From: Oscillospiraceae bacterium
Lineage (GTDB): Bacteria; Bacillota; Clostridia; Oscillospirales; Oscillospiraceae
Reading direction: 5' to 3'
Length of the DNA: 64,000 bases
Assembly (NCBI GenBank): GCA_017469795.1
Contig: JAFUFT010000051.1
Coordinates: 1 to 64,000 of the forward strand
Position numbers and translations under genes: made by a program. The notes beneath the pieces were generated by a model. The model was given only the letters and a program-made list of their open reading frames with translations, had not been told where the DNA came from and searched no databases. Positions 3,219 to 55,766 of this stretch are shown one piece after another. Each line of letters opens with the position of its first letter. Position 1 is the first letter of the stretch.

Positions 3219-3292
3219 AGGGGATTAGTGTAACGGTAACACACCGGACTCTGACTCCGTTTTCGGGGGTTCGAATCCCTCATCCCCTGCCA
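3219..3292 (+). tRNA. tRNA-Gln (anticodon CTG), prophage attachment target
   Basis: The 74-nt sequence folds as a cloverleaf. The acceptor AGGGGAT pairs with ATCCCCT, followed by discriminator G and an encoded CCA. There is a GTG/CAC D-stem, an anticodon loop CTCTGAC giving CTG, and a GGTTCGAATCC-type T-arm. Its 3' 44 nt (from the anticodon loop to CCA) are duplicated at 55723-55766, so the phage supplies the 3' half of the present gene. Confidence 0.93.
3249..3292 (+). repeat. attL core (44 bp)
   Basis: It is identical to 55723-55766. Identity begins in the anticodon loop of tRNA-Gln and ends at the CCA. Flanking bases differ on both sides (A versus C before; T versus A after), which delimits the core. 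Confidence 0.95.
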
Positions 3293-4634: not shown

Positions 4635-4905
4635 GTTTCAGTGCCTCCTCAATGTCTTTGATTCTATGATTTGCTACCTTGATCTGTTCCTCCACCACCG
4701 GCATACGCCGGGCGAAGTTGTTGTGTTCCCGAACCTCCCGCGTCAACTCGTCGATCTTCGTGTCTGTCACGGCCTGCTGAATCTCCAGCTGCTTTGACAT
4801 TTCATTCCCGGTCTTCTTCCCGGTGTAGATAACGCCCGCCAGAGAAACCAGACTGACCAGGATAGACCCGGCGACGCTGATCCAAGCCACAATCACATCA
4901 TTCAC
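4627..4905 (-). CDS. XhlA-like membrane-anchored lysis accessory protein
   Basis: The 92-residue product has an N-terminal membrane helix (about 5-28) followed by a long charged coiled coil, the layout of XhlA-type proteins encoded next to holins. A GTG start at 4905 has GGGAGGTGAGGAC upstream and is preferred to GTG at 4914. It overlaps the reverse transcriptase stop, tying the DGR and lysis cassette into one transcript. Confidence 0.6.
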   Translation of the reverse strand: MNDVIVAWISVAGSILVSLVSLAGVIYTGKKTGNEMSKQLEIQQAVTDTKIDELTREVREHNNFARRMPVVEEQIKVANHRIKDIEEALKHE

Positions 4906-6178
4906 CGTCCTCACCTCCCTCTCTCACTTCCGGAATGGTGAGACTTTTGCAGATGCTACATGGAAATTCGTCCGGGCGCTTTGTCCGGTCTTTGCAGAAT
5001 TTACAGTTGCCGTACATCCAGCACCCGTCATTACACTTTGCGTAGCCCATGGCGCATTTGACCGGGCTTTCTCTGCATACGAAAAGCTCCACCATCTCGC
5101 CCTTTCCTGTGATCTCCGCTTTGACACGCCGAAGGTGGCGGGTCATTGCTTCGTGGTCCGTCTGTTTGGTCATGCCGATGTAGGTTTCTATCGTTTCTGC
5201 CGCTTTCTCCGCCGTCATAAGGTTCAGCCGGTATTTCGCTTTTACGCCCCGTTCGCTCCGCTTGATGCGCAGCGTTGTGGACTTTCGCAGCGTCACACGG
5301 CGAGGCCGGACTTTATACCCGACAAATTCCACGCCCTGGCTGATTGGCCGTATGCAGGTCTTTTCATTCAGTTCCAGCCGGAGCCGTGTTTGTAGAAACG
5401 TCCGGATTTTCTCTCTCCATTCCTGGAGCTGCCGCTTTCCTTGAAAGAGGATAACCACGTCGTCCATATACCGGATGTAGAAGTGGATTCCCAGTACCCG
5501 CTTGCAGAATTGGTCCAGTTCGTTCAGGTACAGGTTTGCGAACATTTGACTGAGCAGGTTTCCGATTGGCATACCCACGTCAAATAGCCGTTCTTCCAGC
5601 GGCACTTCCTCCGGTTTCTTGCCCGGCGGCAGGCCGAATGGCGTATGCTTGCAGTCGATGATCCCATCCAGCAGTTCGCATAGGCGCTCGTCCTTGATCT
5701 TCTTTCGGATGAGCTCTTTTAGGACTTCATGGCTTACGCGATAGAAATACTTGGATATGTCCAGCTTGAGGTAATACCACTTCGCATCTTTGCGGTCCGC
5801 ATAGCGCATCCATTCCCGGAGCCGCGTCATGGCACCTAGAGCGCCGCGCCCAGGAATACACCCATAGGAATCCCGGATGTATCCTTTCACCAGCATCGGA
5901 TTGATTACGCGGTATATAGCCCACTGCACCACTCGATGGCGGAACGCAATGGACATTATCATGCGCTTCTTTGGCTCCTGGATGAAAAAGATGTAATATC
6001 GCTCAATTTCATAGGTCCCGTTATAGACCTCTTCGATGGAGCGTTTGTTTTCCGCGTAGACGTCGAACGTATATTTTAGGACTTGACGGTTATACCGCCG
6101 TCCTCTTGCCGCATCCTCGTATGCCGCAAGCATATTTTCTTCTGAAAATATCCGGTCGAATACGTTCTTGATCTTCAT
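4898..6178 (-). CDS. brt: DGR reverse transcriptase
   Basis: This 426-residue reverse transcriptase has the catalytic Asp140 in LKLDIS and YMDD at 237-240. It has IGNLLSQ at 205-211, the DGR-type version of the domain 4 motif, where most other bacterial RTs have QGxxxSP. DGR RTs copy the TR RNA into cDNA with errors at adenines, together with Avd. A Cys-rich tail (nine Cys from about residue 370 on) may bind metal and is not part of the core fold. The gene lies downstream of avd and TR in canonical order. Confidence 0.95.
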   Translation of the reverse strand: MKIKNVFDRIFSEENMLAAYEDAARGRRYNRQVLKYTFDVYAENKRSIEEVYNGTYEIERYYIFFIQEPKKRMIMSIAFRHRVVQWAIYRVINPMLVKGYIRDSYGCIPGRGALGAMTRLREWMRYADRKDAKWYYLKLDISKYFYRVSHEVLKELIRKKIKDERLCELLDGIIDCKHTPFGLPPGKKPEEVPLEERLFDVGMPIGNLLSQMFANLYLNELDQFCKRVLGIHFYIRYMDDVVILFQGKRQLQEWREKIRTFLQTRLRLELNEKTCIRPISQGVEFVGYKVRPRRVTLRKSTTLRIKRSERGVKAKYRLNLMTAEKAAETIETYIGMTKQTDHEAMTRHLRRVKAEITGKGEMVELFVCRESPVKCAMGYAKCNDGCWMYGNCKFCKDRTKRPDEFPCSICKSLTIPEVREGGEDGE

Positions 6179-6263
6179 GCTATCGCGGTTCCTCTCCGTG
6201 TATTGCGGCGTTCGCTTTCGCTACTTGCGGCTTCCACGGTTGCGGCCACGCCGCGTCGTTTTT

Positions 6264-6287
6264 CTCCAGCGGCTCTTGCCGCCGGAG
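6264..6287 (-). other. Hairpin in the TR-RT spacer
   Basis: A 10-nt inverted repeat (9 of 10 paired, 4-nt loop) sits in the 184-bp spacer between TR and the RT start. In the Bordetella phage DGR the spacer RNA is needed for cDNA priming. A role for this hairpin there is inference. Confidence 0.45.
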
Positions 6288-6362
6288 TGGGAGCGGTCTC
6301 CTTTATCCCCGCGGTGCTGGACCGTCGCCCGTGAGCGCCGGACTTCTGACCATTCAGGGGTG

Positions 6363-6479
6363 AAGCGGAGCGGAAGCCAATGTTGCTGTTGGCGTTGGAC
6401 CGAGAGTTGTTCAGGTTCCAGTTGAACACGCCCGCATTGGCGGCGTTGTTCCAGTTGCCGCCAGCAATCGGCATACGCT
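6363..6479 (-). repeat. DGR template repeat (TR), 117 bp
   Basis: This 117-bp segment aligns without gaps to VR1 (6970-7086) and VR2 (39901-40017). All 16 and 10 mismatches fall on T of the plus strand (A of the coding strand) out of 27 such positions; no C, G or A position differs. Read in frame it holds repeated AAC/AAT codons, which cannot mutate to stops at their A positions. It begins at the last base of the avd stop codon. Confidence 0.97.
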
Positions 6480-6868
6480 TATAGGCCGTTCCCAGTGTTA
6501 TTCTTTGTCCGCCGTCCGTCGGCGGGTTCGACGGCTTGTAGAAAGCCACCTACCATGGCCCCGATCTCGGAGAGGTAGTCACTGATATTCAGGAATTTCC
6601 GCTCTGGCAGGAACTTGAGTTGATATGCCACCAGTACATACGTTTTCGCTTTTGCAACCTCCACGTCCAGGTCCCGGAGCGTTGTTTTCTTGAAGTAGTG
6701 CTTGTCTACTTCGATACTCCGCTCCAGCATCCGGTCCATACATTGCTTGATATCCGCCGCCATGGCGTACTTCTCGCTCTTCGGAAATTGCTTGAGTTCC
6801 GGGTATGTATAAAGCATCATGTCTATGATCTTCTGTGTGATTTTCAGTGGTTCATATTCCCTTGCCAT
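6479..6868 (-). CDS. avd: Accessory variability determinant (Avd)
   Basis: The 129-residue, mostly helical and basic protein has the size, composition and position of bAvd. Avd is the barrel-forming four-helix-bundle partner of DGR reverse transcriptases that binds TR RNA. It sits between the variable protein and TR, as in Bordetella phage BPP-1. Its TAA stop shares a base with the start of TR. The start is supported by GGAGGAAAC upstream. Confidence 0.88.
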   Translation of the reverse strand: MAREYEPLKITQKIIDMMLYTYPELKQFPKSEKYAMAADIKQCMDRMLERSIEVDKHYFKKTTLRDLDVEVAKAKTYVLVAYQLKFLPERKFLNISDYLSEIGAMVGGFLQAVEPADGRRTKNNTGNGL

Positions 6869-6913
6869 TGTTTCCTCCCGTTGTTTCTACCTCTCCGGAT
6901 TTTTCGGGCTATG

Positions 6914-6933
6914 CGCCTCGCTACCGCGAGGCG
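6914..6933 (-). other. DGR target-site hairpin downstream of VR1
   Basis: A perfect 8-bp stem (6914-6921 with 6926-6933) has a coding-strand loop GGTA. It lies 36 bp past the 3' end of VR1. DGR target recognition uses DNA hairpins/cruciforms with about 8-bp stems and GRNA loops just downstream of VR; this matches. Confidence 0.8.
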
Positions 6934-6949
6934 TTCAGGTCACAGCGTC

Positions 6950-8011
6950 TCAGGCACTCAGGTCACAAAAAGCGGAGCGGAAGCCAATGATGCCGTCGGC
7001 GCCGGACCGAGAGTTGTACAGGGCCCAGCGGAACACGCCCGCACCGGCGGCGTCGTACCAGTAGCCGCCAGCAAGCGGCATACGCTCTCCGGCCAAGGTC
7101 ATGTAGCGGTAGTCGCCGCCGTAGTCCCCGCCCGGCTCGTCCGGGTAGATGGTCATAGCCTTGATGATCTCCGGGACCGTCAGGCCGGAAGCCAGGCCAA
7201 TGGAGGTGAATCCCGTGCTTCTGCCGGCGCTGCCATCATCTGTGACGGTGCCGGTGGTCAGCGTCAGCTTGCTCGACAGATAGTCGAATTTCAGCGTACC
7301 GGCGGTGCCGGGGTCCACCAGGGTCCCATCCGCCAGGATCGCTTTCCAGAACGTGGAGTTGACGCCCATGCTGACTTCCGGGTCCATGCAATTGGCGTAG
7401 GGGATAAGCTGGATTTCGCCGTCCATCAGCCGGAGTCCGGCCAGCCACTCATAGATATTTCCGTTCATGTCGGCAATGCCGTCCGGAAGCCAATTGTGAT
7501 TCCATGTGGCCGGGCCGCTGCCTGTGGCCGTCCGCTGCACTCTGCCCTCAGTATCCAGCGCATTGCTCGGAATGCCCTTTTCGTGGGTATAGACGTGGTC
7601 TCTGCCGTAGTTGTTGTTGCCCCGCGGCATTGTCCCGTTCTTCCTGGACCAGAGCGCCACAGCCGCCCACAGCGCCGCAGGGGTCAGGCTCCACCCGGCC
7701 CCCTTGGTCCGGCAGGCCGTTACGGCAGAGTCAAAGTTAATGCTGGTTTTCGGGTCCTTGAGCGGCAGAGAATAGGCCCGGTTGTTCACAACGACATTCT
7801 GGAACTTGGAGAAGTACATTGCGTTCTTTTCCACGCCGTTCACAGAGAAGCCATAGTGGGTATTGTCGCTGGCCCCGGCAATCAGCTCAGAGTTCTTGAG
7901 CTTCGCAATGGGGACCATGATAGAGGGGAGTCCCACATCGTCCAGCAGTACCGTGTTCTTTCCGCCGGTCATGGCCTCAACGGCCAGCTTCATATCGTCA
8001 AAATTCGCCAT
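6950..8011 (-). CDS. DGR variable protein 1, tail-fibre-associated, C-type-lectin/FGE-like fold
   Basis: The 353-residue protein ends in the VR (residues about 309-347), with randomised positions at AAY-derived codons and the conserved GFRSA tail. The preceding part has FGE-sulfatase/C-type-lectin features: SLTPAALWAAVALW, TGSGPATWNHN and DMNGNIYEWLAGLRL. It is co-transcribed with small fibre-associated genes and tail genes. Known phage DGR targets of this fold are receptor-binding tips, so a role in switching host receptors is likely (inference). GGAGG precedes the start. Confidence 0.9.
   Translation of the reverse strand: MANFDDMKLAVEAMTGGKNTVLLDDVGLPSIMVPIAKLKNSELIAGASDNTHYGFSVNGVEKNAMYFSKFQNVVVNNRAYSLPLKDPKTSINFDSAVTACRTKGAGWSLTPAALWAAVALWSRKNGTMPRGNNNYGRDHVYTHEKGIPSNALDTEGRVQRTATGSGPATWNHNWLPDGIADMNGNIYEWLAGLRLMDGEIQLIPYANCMDPEVSMGVNSTFWKAILADGTLVDPGTAGTLKFDYLSSKLTLTTGTVTDDGSAGRSTGFTSIGLASGLTVPEIIKAMTIYPDEPGGDYGGDYRYMTLAGERMPLAGGYWYDAAGAGVFRWALYNSRSGADGIIGFRSAFCDLSA
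6970..7086 (-). repeat. DGR variable repeat 1 (VR1)
   Basis: It is 117 bp, ungapped against TR, with 16 differences, all at TR adenines (coding strand). The GC-only 3' end is unchanged and would serve as the initiation of mutagenic homing (IMH) region. Confidence 0.96.
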
Positions 8012-36308: not shown

Positions 36309-36642
36309 GCGTTCCCCCTCCTTCTTCGTACCGCCGTTTTAGATTCTGCTCCTTCTGGATCGCTCGTTTTCTCATGCGCTCCAGCGCCTTTTCTTCCTTC
36401 CGAATGGCTCCGCGTCTGAATCCTTTTTGAATCATCAGTCGGATTTTTAGCCGCTTTCGCCGTATTCTCCAGAGCATCTGCCGCAAATCCCCGTCTGAGA
36501 GAAATCCGATGTACTCTTTTCCACAGCGCCCGCAGGTAAAGAAATCTATCTCCAGGTCTCCTTCCGTCCGATGGCGCTTTCTGAATCCTTTCGGGTCCAG
36601 CATGGCCCCGCAGGCGTCGCATCTTACCATTGCCATTTTCAT
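36118..36642 (-). CDS. Zinc-finger protein, unknown
   Basis: The N-terminal 110 residues look real: a CDAC/CGRC zinc-ribbon pair (about 8-40), then an Arg/Lys-rich helical region. The last 60 codons overlap the ArpU-like gene in another frame and have shadow-like composition, so the functional protein may be only the first part. Coupled to the Rep-like gene stop. Confidence 0.6.
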   Translation of the reverse strand: MKMAMVRCDACGAMLDPKGFRKRHRTEGDLEIDFFTCGRCGKEYIGFLSDGDLRQMLWRIRRKRLKIRLMIQKGFRRGAIRKEEKALERMRKRAIQKEQNLKRRYEEGGGTLGQAAEKGPQTADSAGIHGVPDRGDTSGQVSGHNPSDGDNENGLEQDAGNVLLLRAPNEEHSE

Positions 36643-37439
36643 TTCCCCTTTCGTCGTTTTGGTGGAATCCTTTCGCCGTCCGTTCTTCTCAGCCGCGCAA
36701 ATATGTATATGCTGCCGTATTCGTCCGAGTGGAACGGGCGAATGTCCGCAACCTCATAATCCGGATATATTTCGTGCCAGGTGTTCCAGTCCATGTCCGC
36801 CAGCTCTGCCGCCCGCTTTCTGGACCGGATTTTGCTGTCGTTATACTCTGGTTCCGGGTCGATCAGGTTTTTACTGCCGTTATAGCTCCGGTAGGTAAGC
36901 CTGGTTTCGCTCTCCTCCCGGTGGGATTTCGTCATGTAGTGGGAAAGCGCCGTAAGGCCGTGCTCGTCAAATTGCAGCCGTTTTGTGTTGGCCCATCCGT
37001 GGCCCCATAGCTTTTCCAGTGCGTCCCGGTCCATGCCCCCGGATAGGATCATGTGGAAGTGATACCGGCCCCGCTTCGTTACCTCCAGGACCCACAGATA
37101 TTTCAGCTCGATCCCCAGCTTTTTATAGCGATATCGGACTTTCCGCAGGAATTTTTGCAGGTCCTTTAGGGCCGTTTCTTTGTCCGGTGGATTGATCGCA
37201 TAGTCCAGCTCCAGCGCCAGATCGTTTTCTGTGAAATTTGTATGGGCCAGCCGGGCCAGCTTTTCCGTAGCATGACGCCGGTTCAGTTTTTTCTGTGTGT
37301 CTCTGCTGGGTCTGCGCTTACTGCGACGCCTCCCGGCGGGCCGCCCCTTTTGGGGATGTACTGGATAGATATATATATCCAGAAATGACCCGCATATATA
37401 TTTCTTCTCCCGATAGGTGGTGTGTGTGTTTAGTAGCAT
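36639..37439 (-). CDS. HUH-like replication-associated protein
   Basis: The 266-residue protein contains the metal-binding HxH of rolling-circle Rep proteins in GRYHFHMILSGG (about 125-136). A conserved LEKLWGHGWANTKRLQ and a Tyr in LSHYMTKSH match candidate later motifs. These features match Rep-associated (G2P/VP4-like) families. Its role in a tailed phage is not known; it might nick an origin. Confidence 0.65.
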   Translation of the reverse strand: MLLNTHTTYREKKYICGSFLDIYIYPVHPQKGRPAGRRRSKRRPSRDTQKKLNRRHATEKLARLAHTNFTENDLALELDYAINPPDKETALKDLQKFLRKVRYRYKKLGIELKYLWVLEVTKRGRYHFHMILSGGMDRDALEKLWGHGWANTKRLQFDEHGLTALSHYMTKSHREESETRLTYRSYNGSKNLIDPEPEYNDSKIRSRKRAAELADMDWNTWHEIYPDYEVADIRPFHSDEYGSIYIFARLRRTDGERIPPKRRKGK

Positions 37440-37641: not shown

Positions 37642-38211
37642 TCATACCTCCGTGATCTCCAGATGGAATTTGTCGTGCATCTGTTTCCGTTTGATCTTGT
37701 ATTTCTCCGTCCTGGTCCCTTTGGATTTCACGTCCTCCACTATATAAATAGTGAAGTCCCCGTTTTCATCCGGTCTGTAATATGTGAAATCCGCCTTGTA
37801 TGTCTCCGGCTTTACCCGCTCCCCGGTTGGCTTTGTATACCCTTCGATCAACGTGAAATTGACCTGTAATCGGAGGTCATAGATTGCGCCGCACCGCTCC
37901 ATTCCCCGCAGTTCCAGGAACCGCCTGGCCTCCTTCTTGCTGTCGAATGGGATGCCGTCCACTTCGGTTTTCTGGTTTTTGTACTTGGATTTCGTCCGGT
38001 CGGATTCCCGGGCCGGTGGTTCCCCGACGGGCCACGGCATGACGCTGTTTGCATTGAGACTCAGATATTCCCACTGTTCCTTTGTCATGGTTTCTGTCCA
38101 CGCTGTAGTCGTATCTTTTGCCCTGTCCGTTTTTTGCTCCTGCGCTGCCAGTTTCCGCCGGGCCTGCTCCTGATATTTTGGCGGAAGTTGGGAGATATCG
38201 TCATATTGCAT
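37642..38211 (-). CDS. DUF1064-family nuclease-like protein
   Basis: The 189-residue protein has the DUF1064 core: SKYKNQKTEVDGIPFDSKKEA, a Glu/Arg helix, YKADFTYY and VEDVKSKGT. The Glu, Asp, and Glu-x-Lys-like residues resemble a PD-(D/E)XK nuclease. Members are proposed as phage resolvase-type enzymes. Coupled to its neighbours by 1-nt overlap. Confidence 0.72.
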   Translation of the reverse strand: MQYDDISQLPPKYQEQARRKLAAQEQKTDRAKDTTTAWTETMTKEQWEYLSLNANSVMPWPVGEPPARESDRTKSKYKNQKTEVDGIPFDSKKEARRFLELRGMERCGAIYDLRLQVNFTLIEGYTKPTGERVKPETYKADFTYYRPDENGDFTIYIVEDVKSKGTRTEKYKIKRKQMHDKFHLEITEV

Positions 38212-39819: not shown

Positions 39820-39839
39820 CGGGCGGCTTCCGCCGCCCG
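39820..39839 (-). other. DGR target-site hairpin downstream of VR2
   Basis: A perfect 8-bp stem (39820-39827 with 39832-39839) has a coding-strand loop GGAA, a GRNA tetraloop, and an outer G-T pair as in the VR1 hairpin. The stem sequence is unrelated to that of VR1, so structure, not sequence, is kept. Confidence 0.8.
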
Positions 39840-39862
39840 TTCAGGACGCAGTATCTCAGGTC

Positions 39863-41044
39863 TCAGGGCGCAATGGGTTTTCCGCTACCTTTCCGGTAAA
39901 AAGCGGAGCGGAAGCCAATGCTGCTGTAGGCGTCGGACCGAGAGTAGTACAGGTTCCAGTAGAACACGCCCGCAAGGGCGGCGCTGTTCCAGTCGCCGCC
40001 AGCAATCGGCATACGCTCGCCCTCGGTATCGGCCCACAGATAATTGTTTGGATCTCCCGGAAATATTCCCAGTTCCCGTAGCTCCTCCGATTTCACATCG
40101 TATTGGACGTCCTCCCATTTTGCCCCGCTCCATCCATTGATACACGTTCCATTCGTAAATCGGATTCTCCCATCCTCGGCAGAAATAAAGACCGGATTTC
40201 CATCGTCATCCCAAATGTCCACCCAATCTTCCCCATTTTCCGACAGGTCCCGATCCCTTGAGGCGGCGTTGTTGAAATCCGCCCCCTGGAGCTTTCCATC
40301 TTTCAGCCGCAGTCCCCGGACCCGCTCCCAGATGCCCCCGCATAGGTCATGTACGCCCGTCATGGTGTGGTCATGGGTCCAGGTTTCCGGACCGGAGCCG
40401 GTGACGGTCAGCGGACCGTTTTCCCACAGTTCCCCGCGTTCCTCCGGATTCCCATGGAATTTCCCGCAGTCTGTATTTCCGTGGGGCAGCGTCCCGTTTT
40501 TCAGGCTCAGATTTGCCATGAGCCCCCATTCCGGTGCCGTCAGCATATGCCACCCCTCGCCCTTGGAGAAGCAAGCCTCCTCCATCTGCTCCAGCGTCAG
40601 TCCGGTCCACGGCTTCGCCCAGGGGAGGGAATAGGGCTTTCCGTTTATCTCGCAGTTCGGATATACGGATATGTAAATCTCGTCGTATTCCTCGCCGTCG
40701 ATGACGAACACTGCGTTTGTGTTCTCACTTCCGCCGAAAAGTTCTCTGTTGGATATATTTCGGAATCTGTGCATAAAGGACGGGATTCCCACCTTGTCAT
40801 AGATTGCCACCACGTCATGGTCAATCCACGGGTTCCCCTGATCCAGAGCTACCACCCGCCCCGCAGAAAGCGTCTGTGCGCCTGGACTCAAAATAACAGG
40901 CGGCGTTTCGGTCCCCTTCGTGTTCGCAATCATGGCCGCATAGACCATTCTGGATTTGTTGGCCTGTTCTTTCACGAATTGCTCTGTGCCCTCGATCTTT
41001 ACCTCGATTTCCTGCGTTTTCATTTGAAATTTAGCTTTTTCCAT
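39863..41044 (-). CDS. DGR variable protein 2 (remote target), FGE/C-type-lectin-like
   Basis: The 393-residue protein carries VR2 at residues about 343-381 and a GFRSA end as in variable protein 1. It shares TGSGPETW, DLCGGIWERVRGLRL and the LTAPEWGLMANLSLKNGT helix with it, so both are one fold family. No signal peptide or membrane helix is seen. It is embedded in the early/modification operon, not among tail genes. AAAGGAG precedes the start at 41044; the longer frame to 41179 overlaps another gene. Confidence 0.9.
   Translation of the reverse strand: MEKAKFQMKTQEIEVKIEGTEQFVKEQANKSRMVYAAMIANTKGTETPPVILSPGAQTLSAGRVVALDQGNPWIDHDVVAIYDKVGIPSFMHRFRNISNRELFGGSENTNAVFVIDGEEYDEIYISVYPNCEINGKPYSLPWAKPWTGLTLEQMEEACFSKGEGWHMLTAPEWGLMANLSLKNGTLPHGNTDCGKFHGNPEERGELWENGPLTVTGSGPETWTHDHTMTGVHDLCGGIWERVRGLRLKDGKLQGADFNNAASRDRDLSENGEDWVDIWDDDGNPVFISAEDGRIRFTNGTCINGWSGAKWEDVQYDVKSEELRELGIFPGDPNNYLWADTEGERMPIAGGDWNSAALAGVFYWNLYYSRSDAYSSIGFRSAFYRKGSGKPIAP
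39901..40017 (-). repeat. DGR variable repeat 2 (VR2)
   Basis: It is 117 bp, ungapped against TR, with 10 differences, all at TR adenines (coding strand). VR1 and VR2 differ from each other too, so they have been rewritten independently. Confidence 0.96.
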
Positions 41045-42839: not shown

Positions 42840-44690
42840 CTAAACCGCAATATCGTTTTCCAGCGCCGCCATAGTTTGGTACTTCTTCCCGCACATCTCC
42901 GGCATGTTGGCCCGGGCGATTGCCTCCGCCATGGCCGGGCATACAGCATTCCCGCATCGGGCCACCTGCTGACTCTTTGGATATGGTTTTCCGTTATAGT
43001 CCCGCTCGATCTTGTAGTCTGCCGGGAATCCCATGGCGCTGTACAGCTCTCTCGGCGTCAGCATTCGCATGATGATGTCGTGGATGTACCAGTACCTCCC
43101 GTCAATCTTCAGGAGGATGATTTCATCCTCCGCCAACGCGTAGCCGCAGTATTTATTCAGCAGTGCCCTGACCTCCGGCCAGTATCCCAGATCGGTGTCT
43201 GGCTGGTATTTGCGAATAATCGTACCGGCTACCGCGAATTCTCCGGCGCTTGCCGTGATGGTTCTCAGGGGCTTTCGTGCGTCCTGTCCAACGTCCTGCC
43301 CCTTAAACTCCACCACATGGGCGGCAGACATGGACAGCCCTCCGCCGCCTGCGGATGTGATTGTGTTCAGCGGTTCCGTCGGGAGATTCCCTTTTCCGTG
43401 ATATCCGCCTGCGTGAAACGGCTGCAACACAACAGATTGCAGGGCCTCCCGGTCATGGGAAGTGACCGTGTGCATTGGCTCCTGGATGTCAAGCGGTCTG
43501 CCTGTGCTGAAATACTCCACCAGGCTTGCAGAAATCAGTCCGTACCGGTTGGAGGCGTCCGCAGTTGGAAGTGGCTCAGTCATGCCGTTTGCCCGAACGT
43601 TTTCCGTCTGTTCCGTGTGGTACTGGATCAGATTTGCCGCCGAAAGTATCTGGCCGCCTCCGCCTCCCGTGCGTATGGTCATGACCGGCTGACTGGCAGG
43701 AGCGCCCACGGAATTTGCCGTGTTTGGGAAGGTTGCCGGAGCAAGGACCGGCTCCACCAGATGGTGCTTTCCGGAGGATACCACCGTCGGCAAAGGATCT
43801 TCAATATTATGTACCCGCGGAGCCTGTCCGCTCCGTTCTCCGTATCCCACCGGGACAAGGAACGGCTTCCCGCTCTTGAGGGTGAACTTATCCACCCCAC
43901 GAATGACCCGGCGTTGCGTGTTGGCTGCCAAAGGCCGAACAACTGTCGCCCCGTATTTCTCCTTGATCTCCTGTTTGGAAGCAAAGATGGAATACATGGG
44001 CTGTGACCAGTCGATGATCTCTGCCGCCGATCTCCATGGTAGGAGTTTCCCGCTCTTGACTTCCAGACTGTCTTTCGGTCCGTGGGTTTTCTCCGGCCAT
44101 TTGATTGGCTGCCCGTCGCACCGCGCCACCATATAAAACCGCTTCCGGGTGGTAGGCGCTCCATAGTCCGCCGCCACAAGCTCCCGGTGGTCGATCTCAT
44201 AGCCCAAGTCAAGGAGCTGCCGCCACCACCTGCGGAAGGTTTGGCCGGATTTGCTTTTCACCGGCTTTCCTTTTCGCACAGGCCCCCATGTCTGGAATTC
44301 CTCCACATTTTCCAAGATAATCACTCGCGGCCGGACGGTCCCGGCCCACCGCAGGACGATCCAAGCAAGTCCCCGGATATTCCGGTCCACCAGGGCGGCA
44401 CCTTTGGCTTTTGAGAAGTGTTTACAGTCGGGGCTGAACCAAGCAAGTCCCACCGGACGTCCTCCGCACACTTCCTCCGGGTCCACGTCCCAGACGGATG
44501 CTTGCAGGTGCTCTGTGTACGGGTGATTGGTCTTGTGCATTAGGATTGCGGCGGGGTCGTGGTTTATAGCAATCGCCACCGGGCGGCCTGTCGCCAACTC
44601 CATCCCCGTGGAAGCTCCGCCGCCTCCGGCGAAGTTGTCCACGATAATTTCATCCAGAATTGAGATTTGTCCGCTGAATTGTTTCTTCAT
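42840..44690 (-). CDS. DNA (cytosine-5) methyltransferase
   Basis: The 616-residue protein has C5-MTase motif I (IIVDNFAGGGGAS), motif IV as WFSPDCKHFSKA (catalytic Cys, with SPDC in place of PPC) and motif VI ENVEE. The C-terminal motif near PRELYSAMGFPADY resembles motif X. The long middle (about 220-480) would hold the target-recognition region. No restriction partner is adjacent, so it is probably protective. Start 44690 avoids overlap with the upstream gene. Confidence 0.9.
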   Translation of the reverse strand: MKKQFSGQISILDEIIVDNFAGGGGASTGMELATGRPVAIAINHDPAAILMHKTNHPYTEHLQASVWDVDPEEVCGGRPVGLAWFSPDCKHFSKAKGAALVDRNIRGLAWIVLRWAGTVRPRVIILENVEEFQTWGPVRKGKPVKSKSGQTFRRWWRQLLDLGYEIDHRELVAADYGAPTTRKRFYMVARCDGQPIKWPEKTHGPKDSLEVKSGKLLPWRSAAEIIDWSQPMYSIFASKQEIKEKYGATVVRPLAANTQRRVIRGVDKFTLKSGKPFLVPVGYGERSGQAPRVHNIEDPLPTVVSSGKHHLVEPVLAPATFPNTANSVGAPASQPVMTIRTGGGGGQILSAANLIQYHTEQTENVRANGMTEPLPTADASNRYGLISASLVEYFSTGRPLDIQEPMHTVTSHDREALQSVVLQPFHAGGYHGKGNLPTEPLNTITSAGGGGLSMSAAHVVEFKGQDVGQDARKPLRTITASAGEFAVAGTIIRKYQPDTDLGYWPEVRALLNKYCGYALAEDEIILLKIDGRYWYIHDIIMRMLTPRELYSAMGFPADYKIERDYNGKPYPKSQQVARCGNAVCPAMAEAIARANMPEMCGKKYQTMAALENDIAV

Positions 44691-44911
44691 GGCTTTCGCT
44701 CCAGTCTTTGCGGTTCTCCTGCGGCAGTGCCGAATGATTCGTTTCTCCTCCACCGTTCCTGATGTTTGGCGTTTTTGACTCTACATTCAAAGCACCGTTT
44801 ATAGTTACCGCTGATTTCCCTGCCGCACTCCGGGCAGAGACCTTGGCTCCGAAATGCGGCGCGGCGTTTCTGCTGCCAAATTCGTTTATATTGTCTGTCT
44901 TTTTCGGTCAT
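44687..44911 (-). CDS. Small zinc-finger protein
   Basis: The 74-residue basic protein has CPEC and CFEC pairs (about 25-45) and highly charged flanks. Such short zinc fingers lie next to phage methyltransferases. Overlaps its neighbours by ATGA-type couplings. Function unknown. Confidence 0.65.
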   Translation of the reverse strand: MTEKDRQYKRIWQQKRRAAFRSQGLCPECGREISGNYKRCFECRVKNAKHQERWRRNESFGTAAGEPQRLERKP

Positions 44912-45372
44912 CCCGTCACCCGCTCCAGAAGGTCTTCATACATTTTGTGAATCAGCTCAAATTTCGCTTTCCAGACTTCCGCATCCGTGCCGGTCTGCTC
45001 CGGTTTCTTCTGGGCTGTTCCTGCCTGTGTCTCTGGGTCCACCTTGTCCATCCCCAGGGAGTGCAGTAGGCCCCGCTCTATGGCGTCCATCTCCGCTTTT
45101 GTCACCTTCCCGGCCCATTCCCCCAGCCGTTCCACGGCTACGGAATTTATCTGCTCACAGATTGCCGTGGACGGTCTCGGAGCCGACGTGATGCAAATAT
45201 GTGTGTCCATCGGTATTTTCTGTTTGGTGGTCAGGAAAACGACCTCCACCACCGCGCTCGTCCTGTTCTGCTTGTCGTTGGAAACGATAATTCCCGGCCT
45301 ACCGCTGAATATTTCGCTCCCTGTGCTGTAGCCCTTGGCTATGTAGAAAATATCGCCTCTATGGATTTCCAT
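44908..45372 (-). CDS. MazF/PemK-like protein
   Basis: The 154-residue protein has the MazF fold signature: RGDIFYI near the start, SGRPGIIVSNDKQN and VEVVFLTT. The C-terminal 50 residues are an extra coiled segment. MazF toxins are ribonucleases paired with antitoxins; no MazE-like gene is adjacent, so it may be a domesticated or non-toxic member. GGAGGG precedes the start. Confidence 0.75.
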   Translation of the reverse strand: MEIHRGDIFYIAKGYSTGSEIFSGRPGIIVSNDKQNRTSAVVEVVFLTTKQKIPMDTHICITSAPRPSTAICEQINSVAVERLGEWAGKVTKAEMDAIERGLLHSLGMDKVDPETQAGTAQKKPEQTGTDAEVWKAKFELIHKMYEDLLERVTG

Positions 45373-45709
45373 CGTGTTCCCTCCATGCGTAAATTGTCAG
45401 AATGAAATACTTCTCTCCCGGCTCCGCGCCCCAGTCCTCATTTCCCACTCCCGCGGTCAATGTACACTCCGCCACGATTGCCGGGCTGTCCTTGCGGTAT
45501 CCGTTCCGGAATCTCACGGCGCGGAGTCCGTTGTCCCCTGGGAATGCCGTTTCATACGGAATTCCCAGGTCTGCAATCTGGAGCCAGTCCTTTCCCCACA
45601 GCTTTTCAAATCGTCTGGCCCAGTAGATTGACATTTTCCGGTATTCCTCGGTTTTCTCCCCGCTCCGGATCATGTCGAACCACTTCTTCTTGATTGGAAG
45701 TGTCAGCAT
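45359..45709 (-). CDS. ASCH-domain protein
   Basis: The 116-residue protein begins LTLPIKKKWFDMIRSGEKTEEYR, the ASCH signature, with a later YFILTIYAW strand. ASCH domains bind RNA or modified nucleosides. It overlaps both neighbours. The start at 45709 has GGAGGG upstream. Confidence 0.8.
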   Translation of the reverse strand: MLTLPIKKKWFDMIRSGEKTEEYRKMSIYWARRFEKLWGKDWLQIADLGIPYETAFPGDNGLRAVRFRNGYRKDSPAIVAECTLTAGVGNEDWGAEPGEKYFILTIYAWREHDGNP

Positions 45710-46164
45710 CGTTTCCCTCCTCCAAGGTCTTTGGCCCATCGTTGTTTTTTACACGTTGGTGCGGTTGTCTGTCTCGGCCTGCTTTGACAGTTCCAACTTC
45801 CGCCCCTGGTTTCTGTTTCAAAGTGCCAGCCCGCCGCTTTCAGGCTTGTGCCGTCCTCGGAATCAAGTATGTATGTGATGATCTTCCTGTATCCGAGTGC
45901 ATCTGCAGCTTTGGCCGCTCTCGCATATAGGAAAGAGCAGGCGTTCTTTGTCCCGTCTGTGCAGAGGCGCACAACTTCCACCGTAAGTCCGTCGTCATTT
46001 CCACGCGCAACCGGTCTCCCGACTTGGACCACGCCCACTATTTCGCCATTCTCATTGATAGCTGCCACTCGGAATTTGTCTCTGTGGACCGGATCATGAT
46101 GCCTGTGCATAAGTGCCACAAACTCATTCGCTGTGCGAAGTTCAACAGGGATTGCTTTCAGCAT
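45703..46164 (-). CDS. XF1762-like acetyltransferase-fold protein
   Basis: The 153-residue protein has TANEFVALMHRHHDPVHRDK at its start, INENGEIVGVVQVGRP and a GNAT-like C-terminal half (LYARAAKAADALGYRKIITY). It matches XF1762-type phage proteins with the GNAT fold. Substrate unknown; some phage GNAT proteins modify host proteins. Confidence 0.65.
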   Translation of the reverse strand: MLKAIPVELRTANEFVALMHRHHDPVHRDKFRVAAINENGEIVGVVQVGRPVARGNDDGLTVEVVRLCTDGTKNACSFLYARAAKAADALGYRKIITYILDSEDGTSLKAAGWHFETETRGGSWNCQSRPRQTTAPTCKKQRWAKDLGGGKRC

Positions 46165-46319
46165 CTTTCAAAATCCCTCCACTGAGGCCGTTCCTTGCTC
46201 CAGCGCCGCCAAGCCAGGAGTTTCCATCTCGGAGGTTCCCGGTCCATCCACTTCTGAAAGGCGGCGATATACTCCAGCCGCTGATTGTACCGGCGTTTAT
46301 GTTCTCTGCTCTGGCTCAT
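46158..46319 (-). CDS. Small basic protein, unknown
   Basis: The 53-residue protein is rich in Arg and Trp (WMDREPPRWKLLAWRRWSK). Its start overlaps the methyltransferase stop and its end overlaps the next start, a typical coupled phage gene. It fills the space between the two genes exactly. Confidence 0.55.
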   Translation of the reverse strand: MSQSREHKRRYNQRLEYIAAFQKWMDREPPRWKLLAWRRWSKERPQWRDFERC

Positions 46320-47251
46320 ATCGATTCCTCCATGTCAAATATGCTCACCTGGTCCATTCCCTCCGCCTCTTTGACGTTTGCTACAGCCTGATCGAAATAG
46401 CTCGGTTTCAACTCCGCGCCTACGGCCCGGCGGCCCTCCTGGATGGAAACATAGGCTTCACTTCCGATCCCCAGGAACGGCGTGAAAACAATATCCCCCG
46501 GATTGCTCCAGAGCTGGACTGCCCGCCGGATCACCTCAAGCTGCAACGGGCAAATATGCTTTTCGTCCTCGGTGCATTTTGCGCCTTTCCCATTGAGCAC
46601 GTCCGTCCGCTTGATATCGAACCATACCGGGGAGGCGTATTTCTGCCACATCTCCAGATTCATAACCTGCTTTTCGTCCCCGCCGTCCTTCTCAGCGTCC
46701 TTTTCTGTTTTGTAGTGGCGGATCGGCTCCGGCGTTTTGCCGTCACCCTCCCATTTCCGGAAGATCACCAGATATTCCGGCATACCGATTCCCGTATGGC
46801 TTGCGTCCCTCTGGAGCTGGCAGTATAGGAGCCGCTGTGTTTTGGTTTTTTGCATCTCCAGCACCGGGTCCGTCCAGATCACTACTTCGCTGTGATACTG
46901 GAATCCGTACTTCTCGAAATGCCGGATGATATCGCCCCGGAAGTCATACCAGCCCGCGGCCCCGTGAGTGGTTTTATACCTGGCAAGCTGTTTGCAGTGG
47001 ACCGCGCATAGGCGGCCATTCATCAGCACCCGGTAAAGCTCCGGGATCAGGTAATCGAACTGGGTGAAAAACTCCTCCTCATTTTTGCAGTTCCCCATAT
47101 CCCGGAGATCGTCCGAGTAGATATAGAGGTTCGCAAAGGGCGGTGAAAATATCTCAAAGTGTATGCTGCCCTCCGGCATCTGCCGGGCCACATCTACGCA
47201 GTCCCCGTTATAGAGCGCATAGTTTTCCTTGACTTCGCTTTTGATTTCCAT
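46316..47251 (-). CDS. DNA methyltransferase, beta class (N4-cytosine or N6-adenine)
   Basis: The 311-residue protein has motif IV as SPPF near the N-terminus and motif I as FTPFLGIGSEA near the C-terminus. This order marks beta-class amino-methyltransferases such as RsrI-like enzymes. SPPF is compatible with N4-cytosine or N6-adenine. Start at 47251 with GAGGTAAT. No cognate endonuclease seen. Confidence 0.85.
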   Translation of the reverse strand: MEIKSEVKENYALYNGDCVDVARQMPEGSIHFEIFSPPFANLYIYSDDLRDMGNCKNEEEFFTQFDYLIPELYRVLMNGRLCAVHCKQLARYKTTHGAAGWYDFRGDIIRHFEKYGFQYHSEVVIWTDPVLEMQKTKTQRLLYCQLQRDASHTGIGMPEYLVIFRKWEGDGKTPEPIRHYKTEKDAEKDGGDEKQVMNLEMWQKYASPVWFDIKRTDVLNGKGAKCTEDEKHICPLQLEVIRRAVQLWSNPGDIVFTPFLGIGSEAYVSIQEGRRAVGAELKPSYFDQAVANVKEAEGMDQVSIFDMEESI

Positions 47252-48642
47252 TAAATTACCTCGCTTTTCAGCCATTCCGGAATCGCCGCCGTCTGTCGCT
47301 CCAGGTTCAGCTTGAATGTCCTTCCGTGGATCGCTCCGGTCTGGAATTCTCGCATAGCCTCCGCCATGCTCCGGCTCATGTCCGCTTTGAGTTGCTCTTT
47401 CCGGTTCACCGCGTCCAGGATCACCTTTTCATTTTCTCCAATGACCTTCCAGACGTTGACCGGGTTTTTCTGGCCGAATCGGTACACCCGGCGGACAGCC
47501 TGATAATAGCTCTCAAATGAGTAGTCCATCCCGCAGAAAATCATGTTATGGCAGTTCTGGAAATTCAGCCCGTAGCCGAATATGGACGGTTTGGAGATCA
47601 GCACTCGGATTTTCCCAGAGGCAAAGTCCGCCGCCGCCTGTTCTTTCTTCTCCACCTTGTCGCTGCCGCGAATCTCCACCGCATCCGGAAGATATTCCCG
47701 TAGCAGGTCCGCTTCGTCGTTCTGATAGCACCATACAAGGAATTGCTCGTTCGAACGGCCAGCCAGTCCTTGGCAAGCCGCGGCTCTGTTCCGGATGGTC
47801 TTTTTCTTCTCCCGATGGAATCCCGTGGCGTTCATATTGAGCTGTTCCGTCAGGGCCTCCATGGGGTCCGCTTTCACGTCCCGCTCCACGGTGATGGTTT
47901 TCTCCTCCAGGGGGGGCAGTATGTACCCTTCGTCCGAATATCCAATATCAGACGGCTTTTCGATGCAAACCGCCCAGGAGCTTACCCATTGCCAAAAGTC
48001 TTTTTCTGCATGGCGTTTCAGCCGGTAGTGGCCGGAATTCCGCTGGTCCGCGATAAACCAGCAGGAAAGGGCCTCGTTGGATTTCATAATTCCCAGAAAT
48101 TCCGCCTGGTTCAGCAGCTCCATCAAGTCATTGGGCGCGGGCGTCGCGGTACAGGATAGCTTGTACGGCGTGTCCTGGAATGTTTTCACGATCTGCCGCT
48201 TGATGGTTCCGGTGTAGGATTTCAGGATGGAGCTTTCGTCCAGCACCACCCCGGAGAATTTGTGCGCATCGAAATGCTCCAGCATTTCGTAATTGCATAT
48301 ATTTACGCCCGGTTGGACGTGGCCCTGGTTTCTGCACACCGTCACACGGTATCCGAATTTTTCACCTTCCCGGCGTGTCTGGTCCGCCACTGCCAGCGGT
48401 GCAAGGATTAGTGTTGGCTCCCCGGTGTAGTCGCTGACGCTTTGCGCCCATTCAAGCTGCTGTGCCGTTTTCCCAAGGCCGCAGTCCTCAAACAGCGCCG
48501 CCCGGCCCCGCTGGAGCGCCCAATGACAAATATCCCGTTGCCATTCAAACAACATTGGATTGATTTCCGGTTTATTCTTGTGAAATCCGGAGGGCGTCGC
48601 CCGCTCCAACTTCCGTTTTAAGAAATCCGTGTAGGTTTCCAT
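47251..48642 (-). CDS. SNF2-family DNA-dependent ATPase/helicase
   Basis: The 463-residue protein has motif I DCGLGKT, motif II LDES, SCTATP (motif III) and motif VI QAVRRVYRFGQ, the last specific to SNF2. Phage SNF2 ATPases act in replication or recombination. The gene shares one base with the methyltransferase start and lies in the replication/modification cluster. Confidence 0.9.
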   Translation of the reverse strand: METYTDFLKRKLERATPSGFHKNKPEINPMLFEWQRDICHWALQRGRAALFEDCGLGKTAQQLEWAQSVSDYTGEPTLILAPLAVADQTRREGEKFGYRVTVCRNQGHVQPGVNICNYEMLEHFDAHKFSGVVLDESSILKSYTGTIKRQIVKTFQDTPYKLSCTATPAPNDLMELLNQAEFLGIMKSNEALSCWFIADQRNSGHYRLKRHAEKDFWQWVSSWAVCIEKPSDIGYSDEGYILPPLEEKTITVERDVKADPMEALTEQLNMNATGFHREKKKTIRNRAAACQGLAGRSNEQFLVWCYQNDEADLLREYLPDAVEIRGSDKVEKKEQAAADFASGKIRVLISKPSIFGYGLNFQNCHNMIFCGMDYSFESYYQAVRRVYRFGQKNPVNVWKVIGENEKVILDAVNRKEQLKADMSRSMAEAMREFQTGAIHGRTFKLNLERQTAAIPEWLKSEVI

Positions 48643-54420: not shown

Positions 54421-55629
54421 ATGTCATTAAAACAGAGTAAGGACGGGTATTTTCGCACATCTATTTCCTTTGAGGGGCGAAAATACCAGGTTGCAGGAAA
54501 GACGGAGGCGGAGGCATACAAGAAAGCCGGAAAGCTCCGTTCCGAGTTGGAGTCTGGCCGCCGGAAAAAGCGGCAGGGCGTGACGTTGGCTGTATTCGCA
54601 AAAGAATGGCTGCAAACCTACCACGGGACCGGCTCCGAGAATGACAAGCGATATGAGCAGATCGTAAAAGGAATCATTATCCCCGAACTCGGCGCAAAGA
54701 AGCTACGGAATATCACCGAGTCGGAATTACAGCGGTTCTTGAATGACCATTCCGACAGCAGCTTTTCCCAGCTCTCCAAAATCCGCATGACCTTGAAACA
54801 GATTTTCCATAAGGCCCGGAAAAATCATCTGATTGTCGATGATCCGGCGGAAGATTTAGTGCTCCCTGACTGCAAGAAGGGGACTCACCGCAGCTTGACG
54901 CCCCGTGAAACGTACCTTCTTTTGCAGGCCGCCAGTGAGCGCCCGGACGGACTGTATATGAAAATCATGCTCTATTGTGGCCTGCGCCCGCAGGAGGTAG
55001 ACGTGCTCCAGTGGCGGTTTGTTGACCTTGATAAAAAGGTGATCTACGTTCGGCAGGCGCTCAAGCATAAGACCTCAATAATCGGCCCTCCTAAGAGCGA
55101 CGCCGGAGAACGTGACGTCCCAATCCCGGACGTACTGCTGGAGGAATTGAAGCCCCGGGCCGCCGGGCCGGATGAATTCGTTATCAACCGAAACGGAAAG
55201 CATCTGACGGAATCCAGCCGTTACCGTCTTTGGAAAGCCATCTATAAGCGCATGGACATTCTGGCCGGTGCCGTGGTCTATCGGAATGAGATCGTGGAAC
55301 ATGCCATTGCGCAGGACCTTGACCTATATGACCTCCGGCATACCTACTGCACCAACCTCCAATCCTCCGGCGTTGCTCTGAATATCGCAAAAGAGCTTAT
55401 GGGCCACGAAGATGTAACGGTCACTGCCAATATTTATACGCACACCGTTTCCGACAATCTCCATGATGCTATCGGTAGTCTCGGTGCATTCATGGCAGGC
55501 GAGGCCACAAGGCAGGAAACGGAAGAAAAGAAGCGTTCTGCGGATCGCCCCGCCGAATCTGAGGAGGACAGAAAGGCCCGTGGCCGGGCTGCCAAACTTA
55601 GGTCCCAGCTCCGCGTGATTTCCGCTTAA
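54421..55629 (+). CDS. int: Tyrosine-family integrase
   Basis: The 402-residue protein has an N-terminal arm-binding beta region (about 1-45), a SAM-like core-binding domain (about 57-140) and a catalytic domain with Arg189, Tyr303/Arg306 (YDLRHT variant of HxLRHT), His329 and nucleophile Tyr339. It ends 93 bp from attR. It would recombine attP with the tRNA-Gln 3' end. GGGGGG precedes the start. Confidence 0.96.
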   Translation: MSLKQSKDGYFRTSISFEGRKYQVAGKTEAEAYKKAGKLRSELESGRRKKRQGVTLAVFAKEWLQTYHGTGSENDKRYEQIVKGIIIPELGAKKLRNITESELQRFLNDHSDSSFSQLSKIRMTLKQIFHKARKNHLIVDDPAEDLVLPDCKKGTHRSLTPRETYLLLQAASERPDGLYMKIMLYCGLRPQEVDVLQWRFVDLDKKVIYVRQALKHKTSIIGPPKSDAGERDVPIPDVLLEELKPRAAGPDEFVINRNGKHLTESSRYRLWKAIYKRMDILAGAVVYRNEIVEHAIAQDLDLYDLRHTYCTNLQSSGVALNIAKELMGHEDVTVTANIYTHTVSDNLHDAIGSLGAFMAGEATRQETEEKKRSADRPAESEEDRKARGRAAKLRSQLRVISA

Positions 55630-55722: not shown

Positions 55723-55766
55723 CTCTGACTCCGTTTTCGGGGGTTCGAATCCCTCATCCCCTGCCA
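55723..55766 (+). repeat. attR core (44 bp)
   Basis: A perfect copy of 3249-3292. It is the host's original tRNA 3' end, now without a 5' half. Confidence 0.95.

Follow-up and report, generated by a model that had tools for sequence, protein, structure and literature searches.

A prophage in an Oscillospiraceae bacterium very probably carries a complete diversity-generating retroelement (DGR) with two targets. The variable repeat (VR) in each target is followed on its 3' side by a phased array of trinucleotides and a hairpin. The prophage lies in the 64,000-nucleotide stretch of DNA analysed here, which is called the window below. As a DGR, the element is ordinary in kind, here with a pair of targets. 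What stands out is the phased element that follows those targets and its conservation, which sequence comparisons support well.

The cassette lies on the minus strand, in the order variable protein 1 (VP1), avd, template repeat (TR), reverse transcriptase (RT). The RT (4898..6178, 426 aa) carries the motifs IGNLLSQ and YMDD, in keeping with the patterns (I/V/L)GxxxSQ and YxDD of the DGR clade. It matches PHROG 1423 (phrog_1423, “Reverse transcriptase”, E 1.7e-123) and, in a profile search, PDB entry 8ub7 (again “Reverse transcriptase”, E 9.6e-79). Its closest relative in IMG/VR is 66% identical, and its nearest named relatives come from Lachnospiraceae and other Bacillota, which speaks indirectly for the gut Firmicute proposed in the initial annotation. 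The avd gene (6479..6868, minus strand, 129 aa) encodes the accessory variability determinant found in most DGRs. Its product scores 88.5 bits against NCBIfam NF033474, above the cut-off of 80, and 77.6 bits against the bAvd profile; a phmmer search of the PDB gave no match for it. VP1 (6950..8011, minus strand, 353 aa) is encoded downstream of tail and baseplate genes and belongs to phrog_2889. It has a C-type-lectin/FGE fold like that of TaqVP, the DGR variable protein of Thermus aquaticus (PDB 5vf4), which it resembles both in sequence (E 3e-54) and in fold (Foldseek E 2e-42, TM 0.93).

Within VP1, VR1 (6970..7086, minus strand) aligns with the TR (6363..6479, minus strand) over 117 bp without gaps. 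All 16 mismatches fall at adenines of the TR, which has 27 of them (nine mismatches are A to G, four A to T, three A to C). Unchanged are all 90 non-A positions and 11 of the 27 adenines (hypergeometric p = 6.5e-13). The initial annotation had claimed this cassette order with its coordinates, the adenine-only divergence of VR1, and an RT with the two DGR-type motifs, and on all of these it was correct.

Between TR and RT lies a spacer (6179..6362, minus strand) predicted to form a conserved structured RNA. Its stems show two-sided changes, with compensatory change in 10 of 18 predicted pairs. This RNA is conserved in the relatives (loci L001-L017), where its pairs show compensatory change and the sequence AAAGG is invariant. 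The only match in Rfam was to a tRNA, and no family there matched the spacer. On the other side of the TR, the upstream flank (ORF 6175-6549, which is in the VP frame) was considered as the remains of a former VP gene, and this idea was dropped when no significant match appeared. A separate feature is the C-terminus of the RT (4898-5120), a Cys-rich tail with 8 Cys in 77 aa. This tail is missing in the nearest relatives, and similar Cys-rich tails occur in L166 and L167.

The surrounding prophage, also proposed in the initial annotation and borne out here, spans about 52.5 kb. It is bounded at both ends by a 44-bp att repeat, one copy of which (3249..3292, plus strand) is the 3' part of a tRNA-Gln gene (3219-3292) and the other of which lies at 55723..55766 (plus strand). 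A phage integrase of the tyrosine recombinase type (PF00589) is encoded at 54421..55629 (plus strand).

This prophage also holds a second target. When the TR is used to query the host genome, one further VR is found, 33.5 kb away, at 39901..40017 on the minus strand; that search returned no third. The DGR had been described as complete from its cassette, and here that description needs amending: the identity of the element and its cassette were right, but this remote VR2 had been overlooked. VR2 differs from the TR at 10 positions, all of them TR adenines, and none of the 90 non-A positions is changed. It lies at the 3' end of the gene for VP2 (39863..41044, minus strand, ATG start at 41044), a protein of 393 aa encoded in the early region (phrog_2889, E 2.7e-90). 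The structure model of VP2 also has the TaqVP fold (TM 0.74), with an additional low-confidence helix segment at its N-terminus that TaqVP does not have. Both VP1 and VP2 match the folds of TaqVP and Mtd, and both VRs are at the 3' end of a gene for a target with the C-type-lectin fold.

VP2 is flanked on one side by a gene for a C5 methyltransferase (42840-44753); on its other side lie genes for a replication initiator (36639-37439) and a Holliday-junction resolvase (37642-38211). A PADLOC search of defence families gave no match to VP2. Besides the C5 DNA methyltransferase, the early region from 42840 to 47275 encodes proteins that resemble MazF (44908-45372) and the DNA modification protein Mom (45703-46164), and it has another gene of the methyltransferase/helicase type. 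In relatives, the homologues of VP2 likewise have genes of DNA metabolism as neighbours, namely ParB-like and primase genes (L236), ParB-like genes (L237, L239), or a replication initiator (L240). A companion target in the early region is common to the window prophage, its relatives, and the Faecalibacterium phage Lagaffe. DGRs with two targets are, of course, already known, since the accessible text of PMC11792537 reports that Lagaffe, Lelie, and CP11 have two VRs each. The consistent early position of the second target is our own observation, made in a few genomes.

What follows each VR is an element of one kind, in which five [CT]TG units at steps of 7-8 nt precede a GRNA-loop hairpin. After VR1, the units TTG, CTG, CTG, CTG, CTG stand at steps of 7, 8, 8, and 7 (6936..6968, minus strand); the hairpin that follows them has a stem of 8 bp and the loop GGTA (6914..6933, minus strand). 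After VR2, the same five units stand at steps of 7, 7, 8, and 7 (39842..39873, minus strand). Here, the array overlaps the stop codon of VP2, and the hairpin after it, again with a stem of 8 bp, has the loop GGAA (39820..39839, minus strand). On both strands of the window together there are two chains of at least four CTG at steps of 7-8 nt, one per VR and each with its hairpin; shuffled windows have 0.15 on average. An RNA partner whose phased CAG units would match the array was also considered and rejected, as the window has no opposite-strand chain of at least four. The count of CAG after the TR is mildly raised (169 versus 136, sd 10.7).

The hairpin half of this element is not new. A hairpin downstream of the VR is already known (Guo 2011), and the accessible text of PMC3240598 describes a hairpin with a GRNA loop at a gap of 4-34 bp. 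Both hairpins in the window lie downstream of their VR and agree with the known pattern of a GC stem of 7-10 bp and a GRNA loop; the gaps are wider, at 36 nt for VR1 and 61 nt for VR2. The two stems are unlike in sequence, and that of VR2 pairs perfectly. Such unlikeness would be expected if it is the structure that counts (PMC3240598).

The phased array recurs well beyond the window. DGR loci were gathered from GTDB genomes and IMG/VR, and their TR/VR pairs were located by adenine-only mismatch. Among 153 non-redundant VRs of relatives, a CTG chain of at least four units follows 53 VRs and no TR, against 0.0 in dinucleotide shuffles. For chains of at least three units, the corresponding numbers are 64, 0, and 0.4. 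Over 161 loci (3.55 Mb, both strands counted), there are 78 CTG chains of at least four at the ends of VRs, compared with 5 in all other places. Distances from CTG to CTG peak at 7/8, 14/15, and 22, and the step pair 7/8 outperforms every other. The hairpin begins 0-4 nt past the last CTG in 40 of 47 cases, and nearly every array has five units at most. Arrays are also present in named phages that stood outside the motif discovery: Dulem 37, VP58.5, VHML, phiWae15, ACA1, BalMu-1, and Mushu.

In distant DGRs, the same spacing is kept with other letters (TTG, CTT, ATTC, TCT). The letters go by RT clade: Bacillota have mostly CTG, Pseudomonadota and Verrucomicrobiota have ATTC/ATTT, and others have TCT/ATC. 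Shuffled labels track the RT tree less well than the motif type does. In L190, CCG replaces CTG in the array units while the spacing is unchanged (ACCGTACACCGTGTACCGTGACACTG). That the units changed in concert may point to their duplication or to a reader that co-evolves with them.

The array is a candidate target mark because it follows VRs and not TRs, because its spacing is held across phyla, and because it is common to remote targets. It would then be functional, and a general form of the IMH of BPP-1. A perfect chain of four is missing in about half of the Avd-bearing VRs, and BPP-1 has only two units; the array must therefore be partly degenerate or not strictly required. No description of it was found in the accessible text of PMC3240598, PMC12875486, PMC6642488, PMC4372165, PMC7290462, PMC3521204, PMC10743442, or PMC11792537. 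Its novelty is provisional, as it refers to the text of the open literature and not to its figures.

An array at the end of a gene might, of course, serve gene ends rather than the DGR machinery, for instance in termination, in the coupling of translation, or as a set of stops for all three frames. Indeed, in 58 of 64 loci the stop codon of the VP gene is located within the array or directly before it. However, the array lies deep and wholly within the coding frame in L037, L125, and L128, and within the gene also in Lagaffe VR2 and Mushu. Its conserved core is CTG, which is no stop codon, and it is also present at remote targets with different downstream genes. The arrays within reading frames contradict the three-frame stop function, and a gene-end role of any sort is very improbable.

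A second alternative holds that this is a canonical DGR and nothing else, in which VR2 would be a duplicate that is no longer alive and the arrays would be passengers kept by inheritance. VR2 does have fewer changes than VR1 (10 versus 16), and similarity may persist through descent alone. However, a dead VR2 would collect changes at non-A positions, of which it has none, and its hairpin stem would not be expected to differ in sequence and yet remain perfectly paired. Relatives have VP2-like genes with a VR2 and an array of their own, and the remote VR2s of L041 and L040 differ almost only at A (15 of 16 differing sites). Passenger arrays would not retain their cores while their spacers drift; in homologous pairs with full alignments, conservation is 88-98% in the cores and 50-78% in the spacers. 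This alternative is very improbable, and a live VR2 with a functional array is preferred.

Turnover in relatives bears on activity. L016 and L018 are 0.34% divergent outside the VR, and within it they differ at 15 positions, each of which is an adenine in the TR; L175 and L179 differ at 13, again all at A. With the L041/L040 pair, this A-restricted turnover indicates that relatives of the window DGR are active, and the DGR of the window prophage itself is probably active as well. In the two related phages to which that pair belongs (L006, with remote locus L041, and L007, with remote locus L040), the TRs themselves are unlike at two sites, one T/A and one G/A. The T and the G of the L006 TR recur at these sites in its VR1 and in its remote VR2. 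The L007 TR has A at both sites, and its VRs bear other bases there.

What reads the array? CTG is the start for E. coli DnaG, and the array might be a site for a host factor, such as a primase start that primes the sense strand beside the VR. The accessible text of PMC12875486 lends this some weight, as editing there favours targets in which the strand complementary to the cDNA serves as the lagging-strand template. Array letters that go with the RT clade argue against a host primase, and this explanation is very unlikely. The array may be recognised as single-stranded DNA, which would fit that preference: here CTG is on the sense strand, the one complementary to the cDNA.

Avd is an obvious candidate for the reader. 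A second set of VRs was collected mainly with Avd-less RTs, giving 262 non-redundant VRs in both sets. With any trinucleotide at steps of 7-8, arrays of at least four units follow 81 of 175 Avd-bearing VRs and 3 of 87 Avd-less VRs. In the Avd-bearing set, none follows a TR. GRNA hairpins are found at 46 of the 175 Avd-bearing VRs versus 0 of the 87. Strong as this raw association is, it finds no support once the RT tree is used: Avd was gained or lost about four times on that tree, and the independent pairs do not support a link between Avd and array. Candidates for the reader would thus be Avd, the RT, or another clade-wide factor. The Avd of BPP-1 is a pentamer, and we conjecture that the five-unit maximum fits this. 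In the Vibrio phage VHML (L231), an array is present and no open frame for Avd was detected, unlike in its close relative VP58.5; the avd of VHML may be broken or mis-sequenced.

Two known systems are close to that of the window. The DGR of Lagaffe (MG711461; accessible text of PMC11792537) also lies in a Myovirus-type prophage with the order VP-avd-TR-RT, has its second VR in an early-region FGE-type gene adjoining an exonuclease, and has CTG arrays after both VRs, at steps of 7-9. It differs in its RT, which is about 42% identical, and in its VR2, which is internal to its gene; a GRNA hairpin was looked for there and none was found. The accessible text of that paper holds no discussion of the early position of the second VR or of the array. 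The BPP-1 DGR (mtd-avd-TR-brt; accessible text of PMC3240598) shares gene order, adenine mutagenesis, and the GRNA-loop hairpin after the VR. Unlike the window DGR, it has one target and a VR-hairpin gap of 4 bp. It has only two phased units, CTGattcTTG, within the stretch where IMH differs from IMH*. As to annotation, the variable protein and TR region of Dulem virus 37 (L241, 2093-3172 and 3698-3913) are labelled as calicheamicin/enediyne biosynthesis, evidently a misleading label that arose through the shared FGE/CalU17 fold.

In the proposed mechanism, TR RNA would be reverse-transcribed by the RT with Avd, and random bases would be inserted at template adenines. The cDNA would replace VR1 in the tail-module VP1 and VR2 in the early-region VP2. 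Directly beyond the 3' end of the homology between TR and VR, an element of at most five [CT]TG motifs, spaced by 7-8 nt and ending 0-4 nt before the GRNA-loop hairpin, would mark a VR as target and not template. VP1 and VP2 are putative binding proteins. From the position of its gene and its modelled fold, receptor binding is plausible for VP1; this cannot simply be extended to VP2, whose gene lies in the early region.

More tentatively, and with the balance of our own judgment against it, a YTG-type array with a GRNA hairpin may be an unrecognised general address of DGR targets, of which the IMH of BPP-1 would be a shorter form. It would be read as single-stranded DNA by RT-Avd, perhaps with each subunit of the Avd pentamer taking one motif. 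Such an address would separate target from template and recruit remote genes, here that of an early protein that is maybe intracellular.

How cDNA enters a DGR target is incompletely understood, according to the accessible text of PMC12875486, and so is the choice of VR over a near-identical TR. For that choice, the array offers a concrete and mutable candidate. Remote targets were beyond detection in the survey of Roux et al. 2021 (PMC8144416), and the array would give a handle by which to find them. The early companion target, in turn, raises the question of what phages diversify besides their tails.
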